Assembly (NCBI GenBank): GCA_016841185.1
Contig: JAENZQ010000023.1
Location: forward strand, 1-59,074
Reading direction: 5' to 3'
DNA from: Anaerovorax odorimutans
GTDB taxonomy: Bacteria; Bacillota; Clostridia; Peptostreptococcales; JAAYPU01
DNA: 59,074 nucleotides
Under the pieces are notes generated by a model. The model ran no database searches and had not been told where the DNA came from. It was given only the letters and a program-made list of their open reading frames with translations. Position numbers and translations under genes: made by a program. Below, piece by piece: positions 7,039-58,976 of this stretch. Positions within the stretch are counted from its first letter, which is position 1; every line of letters starts with the position of its first letter.

Positions 7039-7944
7039 ATGGAGCAAAAAACAAGTGAATATCAAAAAGGGATAATTTATATTGCAGGTGTCTATATCAT
7101 ATGGGGATTACTTCCGGCATATTGGAAACTGATGAACAATATCAACGCTTTGACCATTTTATCACACAGGATCATCTGGTCCTTTGTATTGGTTTCCATA
7201 TTGCTCGGGGTATTGTATAAACCGAAAGATATACTGGAACCTGCAAAAAACAGGAAAAATAGGATTTTTTTTATTGCGGCAAGCATCATCATTACCATTA
7301 ATTGGGGGACCTATATTTTTGCAGTTGTGACAAATCACCTGATCGAGGCCAGTATGGGTTATTACATCAATCCTCTTGTTGTGATATTCCTAAGTATGAT
7401 TATCTTTAAAGAAAAAATGAACATCCTTAAAAAGATCTCCATAGCTTTAGCCTTTATAGGTGTTATTATAATGATTTTGGGCTATCATAAGGTACCGGTT
7501 ATCGCTTTGACACTTGCTTTTTCCTTTGCCTGTTACGGCGTTATAAAGAAAAAGCTGATGGTGAATTCTTTAATGTCTTTGTTCTATGAAACCCTGTTTA
7601 TTTTGCCTGCAGCATTAATCTATGCAATATATGCGGAAAAAACAGGTGCCGGATATTTTATCAATATAAATATCAAAGAAATGCTTCTCCTGATGGGAGG
7701 CGGGGCAGCAACATCTATTCCTTTATTACTTTTTGCATCAGGTACTAAAAGAATAAATTTTTCAATGGTTGGTTTTATGCAGTATATTTCGCCCACCATC
7801 ACTCTGATAATGGGTGTGTTTATATATTCAGAGCATTTCGGGATTAGCCACATGATTACCTTTGGATTTATCTGGGCTGCTCTTGTTATTTTCACCATTG
7901 CGAATATTATGGACAGAAAGAAGCAGGCCCTGCCCGTTAAATAA
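7039..7944 (+). CDS. rarD: RarD/EamA-family membrane transporter
   Basis: This is an integral membrane protein of the drug/metabolite transporter superfamily with about ten predicted helices. The N-terminus GVYIIWGLLPAYWKLMN followed by LSHRIIWSF is the RarD signature; RarD members were named for chloramphenicol sensitivity but their substrate is not established. EamA repeats span roughly residues 10-140 and 150-290. The ATG at 7039 is preferred: GGAGAAG lies just upstream, and translation from it begins as other RarD proteins do. A TTG at 7003 would start inside a terminator-like hairpin. Length from this start is 301 aa. It is a single gene. Confidence 0.85.
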   Translation: MEQKTSEYQKGIIYIAGVYIIWGLLPAYWKLMNNINALTILSHRIIWSFVLVSILLGVLYKPKDILEPAKNRKNRIFFIAASIIITINWGTYIFAVVTNHLIEASMGYYINPLVVIFLSMIIFKEKMNILKKISIALAFIGVIIMILGYHKVPVIALTLAFSFACYGVIKKKLMVNSLMSLFYETLFILPAALIYAIYAEKTGAGYFININIKEMLLLMGGGAATSIPLLLFASGTKRINFSMVGFMQYISPTITLIMGVFIYSEHFGISHMITFGFIWAALVIFTIANIMDRKKQALPVK

Positions 7945-7986
7945 TAAATATCATTAGCTTTCAGCGGACGGATAGGTAAGTTATAT

Positions 7987-8052
7987 CATAGAACCAAAAG
8001 AAGTATAAATAAAAGAACTCTTGAAACTTCAAGAGTGTTCTTTTTGTTAAAA
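7987..8052 (+). terminator. rarD terminator, left copy of a duplicated module
   Basis: The hairpin CTCTTGAA-ACT-TTCAAGAG type stem (about 8018-8037) is followed by TTCTTTTTG. The 62-65 base module from CATAGAACCAAAAG through the T-run is repeated nearly identically at 9238-9305, in direct orientation. Confidence 0.8.
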
Positions 8053-8114
8053 TTATTGAAATAAGTATAAAGGACAAATGTAATTCATTTGTAAATATTT
8101 AACAAATTTATAAT

Positions 8115-8142
8115 TTATCAATTAATAGTGCACTGTTATAAG
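8115..8142 (+). promoter_or_regulatory. Candidate promoter for the 8166 gene
   Basis: TTATCA and TATAAG are separated by 16 bases, ending about 24 bases before the ATG at 8166. Agreement with the consensus is moderate. Confidence 0.4.
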
Positions 8143-8165
8143 ATAGGTGTAGCTATAGGAACGAT

Positions 8166-8423
8166 ATGAGAAAAATATCTATAATTTTAGTGCTTGTATT
8201 ACTTATGGTCAGTCTTATGGTTTCATTTTCATATGCGGAGTCTCTCATAGAGTCAGGACCCAACTATCGAATTTATGAAGGTATTCTATCTGGATATTCT
8301 TCGTATTCATGAAAAAGCATTACTCCCTATGGGGGTGAGCTTGCTATTTCATCTGGATTGACCGAATCATTAGCTAAAACATTTATTGCTTTGTGTGTTT
8401 CTGTTATGAAAAATAGTAATTAA
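8166..8423 (+). pseudogene. Small secreted-protein gene interrupted by an in-frame TGA
   Basis: The ATG at 8166 opens a clear signal peptide (MRKISIILVLVLLMVSLMVS, then FSYA as the likely cleavage site) and reads 48 codons to a TGA at 8310-8312. The same frame then continues for 36 sense codons, starting KSITPYGGELAISSG, to a TAA at 8421. A single TGG-to-TGA change in a codon for Trp is the simplest reading (SYS-W-KSIT). The TGA is followed almost at once by a hairpin (AAGC-ATT-ACTCCC-TAT-GGGGGT-GA-GCTT). The family is unrecognised. The RBS is weak (TAGGA). The alternative is a genuine 48-residue secreted peptide. Confidence 0.5.
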
Positions 8424-8440
8424 AAGTAGGAGAATACTTT

Positions 8441-9193
8441 ATGTGTATTGACCAAAATATTAAACCAATTTTTATAATCCTAAGCAGGATTTTATTGGTT
8501 TTTCTTTTAGTATCATTTGCAGTTAAAGCAGAAACCAAAGTTGTATTTATCATTGCTCTGGTTTATTCTTTTATAACCATTTTTTGTATATGGTTGTACT
8601 GCAAGCCTTTAAGCAATAAAAAGCTTTGGCTTATAAGAAGCTTAATTGCAGGAGATATAATATGCAGTATCTTATATATACTGAAATTATACCAATCCGT
8701 TGTTTTTATTGCTGTTTTGTTTGTAATATTATGGGGAACCCTTTATATTGGAAAAGAAGAAAATAAAATAAAGGAAGCTGAAGAGGATTTTATCAATAGC
8801 TTGATATCTTTTAAGAAAATTAAAGAATATAATCATAATAAAGCAACGTTGTTAAATAGAATATGCCCTAAAAAAGAATTTTTGATTACATCAATAATAA
8901 TTATTTCTTTCATAATATTATTATTTGTATTACCTAATATTATTGATGAATTTTATATACCTGATCATAGACCAATTAAAGACCATTTTGACAGTCACCA
9001 TGATTTCTCAGATAAATTTGAATTAGGCTGCAAATTATTTGTTGTATCTTTTTTAATGTCAATAATAATAACTTTTATTGAAAGCGTTTATGACAACAAC
9101 AAAAAAAACTACTATATATATATGAATATATATAAATGGATGATTGTGCTGGTTATATTTATTATATGTTATGTGACTGCGAAATATGGTTAA
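8441..9193 (+). CDS. Hypothetical multi-spanning membrane protein, 250 aa
   Basis: I do not recognise this protein. It shows about seven hydrophobic segments: around residues 7-27, 30-48, 52-72, 78-95, 150-170, 198-215 and 230-247. A charged loop, KEENKIKEAEEDFINSLISFKKIKEYNHNK, lies between the fourth and fifth. A His/Asp-rich stretch, PDHRPIKDHFDSHHDF, at about 178-195 could face outward and bind metal; that is speculation. TAGGAG precedes the ATG and only 17 bases separate it from the interrupted gene at 8166, suggesting one transcript. The pair is bracketed by direct copies of the rarD terminator module, so the two genes may be an acquired unit. Confidence 0.75.
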   Translation: MCIDQNIKPIFIILSRILLVFLLVSFAVKAETKVVFIIALVYSFITIFCIWLYCKPLSNKKLWLIRSLIAGDIICSILYILKLYQSVVFIAVLFVILWGTLYIGKEENKIKEAEEDFINSLISFKKIKEYNHNKATLLNRICPKKEFLITSIIIISFIILLFVLPNIIDEFYIPDHRPIKDHFDSHHDFSDKFELGCKLFVVSFLMSIIITFIESVYDNNKKNYYIYMNIYKWMIVLVIFIICYVTAKYG

Positions 9194-9203
9194 GAAGGTG
9201 GGG

Positions 9204-9239
9204 CTGTCCCCAATTGCTTCACTGTCCCCAATTGTCTCA
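9204..9239 (+). repeat. 18-bp tandem repeat, two units
   Basis: CTGTCCCCAATTGCTTCA is followed directly by CTGTCCCCAATTGTCTCA. It abuts the right copy of the duplicated terminator module and could mark a junction. Upstream GTGGGG can pair with TCCCC. Confidence 0.7.
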
Positions 9240-9305
9240 TAGAACCAAAAGAAGTATAAATGAAAGAACACTCTTGAAACTTCAAGAGTGTTCTTTTTGC
9301 TAAAA
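9238..9305. terminator. Right copy of the duplicated terminator module (shared, bidirectional)
   Basis: The stem ACACTCTTGAA / TTCAAGAGTGT with loop ACT lies at about 9269-9293, followed by TTCTTTTTG. It terminates the 8441 gene on the plus strand and, by symmetry, the convergent 9319 gene. It is nearly identical to 7987-8052 apart from a CA insertion and two substitutions. Confidence 0.8.
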
Positions 9306-9318
9306 CTAATCTGAATAT

Positions 9319-10275
9319 TTAATCTTTATCGTCTTCGCATTTAGACACGGCTTCTTCCTCTGAGCATTTACATCCACGTCTGCCTCTGGACTCCTCATCG
9401 ATCTGATCCGGGAATAATTGAGGGAAAGTGGAGCAAATAGGTGAAGTCTGAGGACTTAATTGTACAAAGCCTGTCGATAATACGCAGAGCTGTACCGGAA
9501 CAACAACTTTCTTTTCACATGTAACACAAAGTGCAATAATCACATTTGCAGTGACAAATCCGGATTCCTGATCCAACAGTAAATCTCGCGTTGTACTATT
9601 GGTTGCAAGCCGTACTTCACAATTAATATTACAGAATTCCGCAAATCTTGGCAAAAATGCTGTGTTGTTTGTGGAAGGAATACAAATTTCAAAAAAGTTA
9701 GTTAAAAGAAGTGGTGTCGTTGTTGCAATAGGAACCATTGCTCTTAGAGTTAATACACTTTCACAATCACATCTGTCAACGATTAATACATCAATTTCAA
9801 TAATAACATTTCCGGTTATTTGAATATTCTGGGTACCGAAAACTGAAGTACCTTGATTTTCTTCTTCACAATCTGTTGTGTCGGCATATATGATGTGTTC
9901 TGATTTGGTTCCATCCGGGCCTGTAACTCTTATGGGTTCGTTATTTTTTTCTACAAAATGAGCGCCGGAAATGGTGGTTTCTGTATTTACTGTAAGGTTT
10001 TTCGGATCTTCAATATCTTCCGGATTAAAGAATTTTTTGCATCTTATGTCCAAAACCTTTTTGATTCTATGTCCTCTGGGGATTGCAGGTCTGAAACACT
10101 GTCCCGAAACGGTTTTTAGCCCCTGAAGATTGAAAAGTACTGCATCATAGACTTTCTGAACAAAAATAGGTTCTGATACAACATTTCTCAAATTTCCGTC
10201 GAATCTGCAAATAGTGTTAGCAGTACAGCAATTTGTTGTAACGTCGGGTGATATATTGCCGCCGAAGCAACTCAT
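9319..10275 (-). CDS. Cys-rich protein, candidate spore-surface protein
   Basis: This 318-residue protein has Cys throughout (MSCFGGNISPDVTTNCCTANTIC at the start; CDCES, CNINCEV, CVTCEKK later). It has no signal peptide or membrane helix. The middle is beta-rich with long hydrophobic strands (IQITGNVIIEIDVLIVDRC, VTANVIIALCVTC), and the tail is charged: RGRRGCKC then acidic. Such composition without secretion signals is typical of clostridial spore-coat or exosporium proteins, but I recognise no named family, so that role is inference. AAAGGAGG stands before the ATG. It is divergent from the 10472 gene and convergent with the 8441 gene. Confidence 0.75.
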   Translation of the reverse strand: MSCFGGNISPDVTTNCCTANTICRFDGNLRNVVSEPIFVQKVYDAVLFNLQGLKTVSGQCFRPAIPRGHRIKKVLDIRCKKFFNPEDIEDPKNLTVNTETTISGAHFVEKNNEPIRVTGPDGTKSEHIIYADTTDCEEENQGTSVFGTQNIQITGNVIIEIDVLIVDRCDCESVLTLRAMVPIATTTPLLLTNFFEICIPSTNNTAFLPRFAEFCNINCEVRLATNSTTRDLLLDQESGFVTANVIIALCVTCEKKVVVPVQLCVLSTGFVQLSPQTSPICSTFPQLFPDQIDEESRGRRGCKCSEEEAVSKCEDDKD

Positions 10276-58438: not shown

Positions 58439-58513
58439 TCCAAAGTAGCTCAATGGCGGAGCACTCGGCTGTTAACCGATAGGCTGTGGGTTCGAGTCCC
58501 ACCTTTGGAGCCA
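58439..58513 (+). tRNA. tRNA-Asn (GTT)
   Basis: The acceptor TCCAAAG pairs with CTTTGGA. Anticodon GTT sits in CGGCTGTTAACCG, and GGTTCGAGTCC is the T-arm. CCA is encoded. First gene of the tRNA operon. Confidence 0.95.
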
Positions 58514-58516
58514 CGT

Positions 58517-58605
58517 GCCGGGGTGGCGGAACTGGCAGACGCACAGGACTTAAAATCCTGCGGTCCATCAAGACCGTACCGGTTCGATTCCGGTCCTCGG
58601 CACCA
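58517..58605 (+). tRNA. tRNA-Leu (TAA)
   Basis: The acceptor GCCGGGG pairs with CCTCGGC. The anticodon loop CTTAAAA between CAGGA and TCCTG gives TAA. A long class II variable arm GCGGTCCATCAAGACCGT and encoded CCA are present. Confidence 0.95.
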
Positions 58606-58616
58606 TTTGTTATTGA

Positions 58617-58692
58617 CGCGGAGTGGAGCAGCTGGCAGCTCGTCGGGCTCATAACCCGAAGGTCAGGGGTTCAAATCCCTTCTCCGCAACCA
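58617..58692 (+). tRNA. Initiator tRNA-fMet (CAT), copy 1
   Basis: The acceptor starts C1 and ends with A72 (CGCGGAG / CTCCGCA), the unpaired C1-A72 that marks initiator tRNA. The anticodon stem carries three G-C pairs (TCGGG CTCATAA CCCGA). CCA is encoded. Confidence 0.95.
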
Positions 58693-58819
58693 ATCGATAT
58701 AAAAAGCGAGAAGCGAGACTTTGAAAAGAAAGGCCTGCGAGAATAGACTTAAATCTTGCTACTCGTATTATATTGAATCAAATGTGGCGGCGGCTTAAGC
58801 TGAAAACATTTCATATCAT

Positions 58820-58895
<76 letters not shown>

Positions 58896-58899
58896 ATAA

Positions 58900-58976
58900 G
58901 GCGGCGTAGCTTAGGTGGCTAGAGCGTTCGGTTCATACCCGAAAGGTCGGTGGTTCAAGTCCACTCGCCGCTACCA
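58900..58976 (+). tRNA. tRNA-Met (CAT), elongator
   Basis: The acceptor GGCGGCG pairs with CGCCGCT (one G-T). Anticodon CAT is in TTCGGTTCATACCCGAA. The sequence pattern is that of elongator Met rather than the lysidine-type Ile. CCA is encoded. Confidence 0.92.

Follow-up and report, generated by a model that had tools for sequence, protein, structure and literature searches.

The stretch of DNA analysed here, referred to as the window, comprises 59,074 nucleotides of contig JAENZQ010000023.1 from Anaerovorax odorimutans (genome G000). Between a rarD-like gene and a conserved gene on the opposite strand it carries two genes which are bracketed by two copies of the same terminator-like module. 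The features of the locus are as follows.

7039..7944, plus strand: rarD-like EamA transporter gene, the left conserved flank (Pfam EamA, 4.1e-23)
7986..8055, plus strand: left module copy, with a hairpin lacking 2 nt of one arm (alignment, fold and terminator scan)
8056..9236, no strand assigned: probable inserted segment (the island), ~1.18 kb, low in GC and absent from the related genome G001
8166..8312, plus strand: 8166 ORF, 48 codons, with a hydrophobic N-terminal segment that looks signal-peptide-like by eye
8441..9193, plus strand: 8441 gene, 250 codons, encoding a hydrophobic protein with ~7 membrane segments by eye (hydropathy scan)
9204..9239, plus strand: two 18-bp CTGTCCCCAATTG-type units, a fragment of a dispersed GTCCCC repeat
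9237..9308, plus strand: right module copy, with a perfect hairpin, arms 9263-9278 and 9281-9296 (alignment and fold)
9319..10275, minus strand: 9319 gene, 318 codons, encoding a conserved Cys-rich protein without a Pfam family, the right conserved flank

The 9319 gene product could not be assigned to a family in Pfam or NCBIfam. Its gene is widespread in clostridial-type Bacillota, with 126 relatives found in the genome contig collection, 80 of which were kept; one further relative is carried by a viral contig (L134). Five tRNA genes (Asn, Leu and three Met-type) cluster at the right end of the window (58439-58976).

The repeated module and its hairpins

The original prediction had described a direct repeat of about 62 bases including the rarD terminator. 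This repeat is present and slightly longer: the copies, in direct orientation, measure 70 nt (7986-8055) and 72 nt (9237-9308), and 67 of the 72 alignment columns are identical, the remainder being three substitutions and a gap of 2 nt. When the two flanking stretches were aligned locally, the score was 63.5, compared to a maximum of 25 among 1000 mononucleotide shuffles. As predicted, the copies bracket the 8166 and 8441 genes and enclose ~1.18 kb.

The hairpin of the left copy folds with -12.5 kcal/mol (z -4.4) and that of the right copy with -21.9 kcal/mol (z -6.7), and both fold on the opposite strand as well. A consensus terminator scan of positions 7800-9500 returned seven terminator-like sites compared to a mean of 0.7 in shuffled sequences. 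Among these sites, the left copy is called on either strand, the right copy just on the minus strand. The plus-strand stem of the right copy absorbs its own T-tract, so that the rule of the scan may miss it. An Rfam search gave no more than two sub-threshold matches to a single plastid 3'UTR family (E 0.45 and 0.94), located on the two hairpins, which were dismissed as chance. We consider the module hairpin a predicted, terminator-like structure that presumably terminates transcription in vivo.

Insertion at this site would have been called into question if the module were a common generic terminator, but in its own genome only two copies were found. The exact hairpin arm occurs at the two modules alone. 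With up to three mismatches the arm is matched 12 times across the genome, the other arm of the right module included, compared to three times for the backwards control. At five of the other inexact loci the remaining part of the module was sought, and the best agreement there, 15-19 of 29 bases, corresponds to the level of unrelated loci. BLAST of positions 7987-9305 against the same genome, for which 40 of 111 candidates were scored, returned just the locus itself and the reverse matches of the palindrome. Thus, neither BLAST, the arm pattern nor the five inexact loci revealed a third copy.

The island and its two genes

Windows of 300 bases inside the island have a GC content of 0.233-0.327, whereas flanking windows reach 0.337-0.420, except for 0.277-0.320 from position 10100 on. 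Likewise, the GC content of the 8441 gene (0.249; GC3 0.232) and of 8166 (0.326) is set against 0.361-0.407 for ilvB, rarD and the 9319 gene (rarD 0.361, 9319 gene 0.387). We infer a foreign origin of the island; since the nearby 10472 gene has a GC content of 0.324, low GC is by itself not decisive for such an origin.

The enclosed genes had been predicted to be orphans, which is borne out by the collections searched, in which neither has a homologue. Among the 393 genomes of the order, the 8441 gene and the read-through version of 8166 each found only themselves and none of the 392 others. No relatives of 8441 were found in plasmids and phages, nor, as far as pattern scans limited to close relatives can tell, in viral contigs and the genome contig collection. 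Searches of Pfam, NCBIfam, PHROGs and PADLOC gave no match to 8441 better than E 0.05, NCBIfam and PADLOC returning none at all; the weak matches to DUF4149 (E 0.74), phrog_28841 (E 0.058) and phrog_8759 (E 0.33) were rejected. A single-sequence structure prediction (mean pLDDT 56, pTM 0.35) was too poor for a fold search. For the read-through product of 8166, tblastn yielded nothing better than E 4-9.

The 8166 ORF stops with TGA at 8310-8312, after which the frame remains open for 36 codons up to TAA at 8421-8423; such an open stretch has, by a post hoc estimate, a probability of 0.037 when the island is modelled as a first-order Markov chain. Just past the TGA lies a hairpin (8320-8338; z -3.7 for 8308-8350). 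A selenocysteine reading of this codon was rejected: the best match to the SelB model in the genome reached 190 bits, below the cut-off of 242, and the best two matches are frames of 398 codons, which we take to be of EF-Tu length. The TGA was therefore taken for either a genuine stop codon or a lesion, and we read 8166 as a short secreted-peptide-like ORF or the remnant of a longer one. The read-through product matched DUF3938 below threshold (17.9 bits, cut-off 25; 14.3 bits for the portion past the stop alone). In 391 genomes of the class, PF13074 (DUF3938) has matches in two, over the cut-off in one, and G000 is not among them. The member in genome G585 bears no likeness to 8166 by eye, the literature searched yielded no mention of DUF3938, and this match was not relied on. 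Peptide and membrane partner would be a purely speculative guess at the functions of 8166 and 8441. The two genes may also be decaying.

Neither 8166 nor 8441 matches a transposase model in Pfam, NCBIfam or PHROGs, and no integrase or recombinase was recognised in the two genes by the ORF list, Pfam, NCBIfam, PHROGs or PADLOC. Apart from the palindrome of the modules themselves, none of the 11 inverted pairs of at least 12 nt in 7800-9500 joins the ends of the island. Integron-type attC boxes, judged by eye against their consensus, were not seen in the island region, and in the genome the module was found at this locus only. Several short DNA matches were rejected as AT-rich chance: those of 38-70 bases (E 3e-3) between the region and four phage records and one plasmid, those of the region in five further relatives (seven of 40 genomes matched, including its own and G001), those of the island at L108 (E 3.4e-4) and L059 (E 0.001), and that of the left module at L060 (E 0.003).

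The empty site and the age of the duplication

An empty site, in which rarD and the 9319 gene are separated by a single module, had been proposed as the test for an insertion, and this arrangement was found in G001, the metagenome-assembled genome Clostridia bacterium Soudan_22, which belongs to the same family and a sister genus. On its contig C116 (JADQBM010000096.1), rarD (76% amino-acid identity) is convergent with the 9319 homologue (88%; match at 7267-8214). The matched coding parts are separated by 104 bp, the stop codons by slightly less, and this spacer holds one hairpin and no island. By our reading, the right module copy differs from the G001 hairpin at two compensatory stem pairs, A-U to G-C and G-C to A-U.

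With one genome per species, G001 is the only close relative found in which both flanks are adjacent. G002, of the same family, has rarD-like genes, and the 9319 homologue is absent, which makes it uninformative. Among 81 loci carrying relatives of the 9319 gene (80 genomic and one viral, with at most 4 kb of flank and many cut by contig ends), rarD shares the locus with the 9319 homologue in ten, G001, L102 and L106 included, and none of the 81 matches 8441 or 8166. Two more of the ten have only ~230 bp (L058) and ~250 bp (L062) between the rarD and 9319 matches, too short for the island. Five others (L056, L059, L069, L064 and L101) have other long ORFs in between. An ORF with an HTHYDH motif, presumably of metallo-beta-lactamase-fold-like type, occupies this place at L056 (5075-6046), L059 (4678-5652), L069 (5053-5979) and L101 (5029-5895), which indicates that in more distant relatives the spacer varies between lineages.

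Between G000 and G001, 48 of 78 fourfold sites (62%) differ in rarD and 54 of 115 (47%) in the 9319 gene; the module copies differ at three of 70 aligned bases. The duplication, or its last homogenisation, thus postdates the split of the two genomes; gene conversion could make old module copies appear young. Taken together, the sequences favour gain of the island in the G000 lineage rather than loss in G001. The insertion that had been claimed is supported by the empty site and the young module copies, and the pair of genes was probably inserted between the copies of the terminator.

Possible routes of insertion and known systems

We lean towards an insertion mediated by homology or template switching, in which the terminator was duplicated and no dedicated transposase took part. 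This route is preferred because the duplication spans 70 bp, because no transposase, recombinase or terminal inverted repeats were recognised, and because the module was found nowhere else. Target duplications of transposons are usually shorter than 70 bp. In the ancestral state, rarD and the 9319 gene would have been convergent and would have shared one bidirectional terminator hairpin. After the split from G001, foreign, AT-rich DNA of ~1.18 kb carrying the two orphan genes would have entered at the hairpin, and a terminator stretch of ~70 bp would have been duplicated in direct orientation, either by integration of DNA that carried a module copy or by repair synthesis copying the terminator twice. 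As a result, the left copy would now terminate rarD, and the right copy the 8441 gene and, on the opposite strand, the 9319 gene. An exact scan of the viral contigs revealed no donor with the module.

The modules might instead be the attL and attR sites of a small integrative element, whose site-specific recombinase would read the palindromic terminator and would have been lost or act in trans. Direct repeats of 70 bp framing a discrete insert, and the single-copy site in G001, fit such an element. We nevertheless regard it as doubtful, as the two genes of the insert match no recombinase family and a second module locus was not found in the genome.

That the two-module state is ancestral, and that recombination between the repeats removed the island from G001, appears unlikely. 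Deletion between direct repeats would leave one module and should yield exactly the G001 arrangement. Barring gene conversion, however, copies of that age should differ as the genomes do at fourfold sites, far above the few differences counted, and no homologue of the enclosed genes was found in the 392 other genomes of the order.

The dispersed repeat at the right edge raises the question of a RAYT, an IS200-like Y1 transposase, as the agent that moved the segment, with the GTCCCC tandem as its recognition repeat. The predicted 18-bp tandem abutting the right module was recovered (9204-9221 and 9222-9239, 16 of 18 positions identical), and its final three bases fall within the module. With at most one mismatch, CTGTCCCCAATTG occurs nine times in the genome, the two units of the window included (control: three), and by eye three of the seven places outside the window (L039, L042 and L043) share a longer form starting TGACAAAATTG. 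As GACAAAATTGCCCTGTCCCCAATTG, ungapped and with up to three mismatches, this form occurs twice in G000 and nine times in G001, compared to none in the controls and in four other genomes. In G001, the stop codon of one Y1_Tnp gene (contig C53, L149, 741-1525; Pfam 1.9e-19) is where a CGTCCCC-type copy begins, and contig C44 (L146, 1497-1604) carries this repeat as three tandem 36-bp copies.

Besides this repeat at the Y1_Tnp stop codon, the nine matches to that transposase in G000 and the position of the tandem next to the right module speak for such a transposase. GTCCCC lies within 1.5 kb of four of seven transposase-match loci in G000 (L154, L156, L158 and L163), at inconsistent places and in a count made without a shuffled control, and is absent within that distance from L160, L162 and L164. 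Positions 9186-9240 fold no better than shuffles (z 0.23), the two units being direct and not an inverted REP doublet. Against RAYT movement stand the left end, which has no matching repeat, and the occurrence of GTCCCC-type repeats in other intergenic places; to our knowledge, IS200/IS605 elements do not make direct duplications of 70 bp. We therefore consider it quite unlikely. As far as seen, the tandem is a fragment from a family of dispersed repeats for which a single clear link to a RAYT-like gene was found, and it does not mark this insertion in particular. In species with CGTC repeats, no RAYT gene is flanked by CGTC units according to PMC3733652; the G001 repeat at the Y1_Tnp stop codon would differ from this if it belonged to the CGTC class. 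Finally, it is very improbable that bidirectional terminator hairpins between convergent genes serve as recognition sites of a trans-acting recombinase that inserts small orphan cassettes, each bringing along a copy of the terminator and thereby leaving termination intact throughout.

Compared with known systems, the island differs from transposons and insertion sequences by its 70-72 nt duplication and by having no recognised transposase or terminal inverted repeats. Integrative mobilizable elements and genomic islands are inserts framed by attL/attR direct repeats; the island resembles them in its direct-repeat framing 3' of a gene and differs in having no recognised recombinase and a length of merely 1.2 kb. 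It is like the REPINs and RAYT-associated repeats, as described in PMC3116915 and PMC3733652, in that a short dispersed repeat lies by the Y1 transposase gene of a relative and as a tandem at the right edge of the island. It is unlike them in that the bracketing module is another sequence, found twice only, and in that the island has no hairpin doublet.

Minimal mobile elements were reportedly described in Neisseria by Saunders and Snyder in 2002. They are defined, in PMC3082526, as gene cassettes between conserved neighbours that differ between genomes and are incorporated via homologous recombination. As far as this definition goes, they are the nearest described kind, the likeness resting on presence and absence against one relative: the island, too, is a whole-gene cassette between two conserved genes without a recognised mobility gene, present in one genome (G000) and absent from a relative of another genus (G001). 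In contrast to the Neisseria elements, its terminator is duplicated around the cassette, and its host is clostridial. The island is probably an ordinary insertion of small size, belonging to a kind already known, and it would gain greater importance only if the module-bracketed pattern recurred at other terminators. Since its empty site has been identified and the duplication can be dated in relative terms, it offers a clean small case of presumably foreign genes entering between convergent genes while termination would have stayed unbroken.
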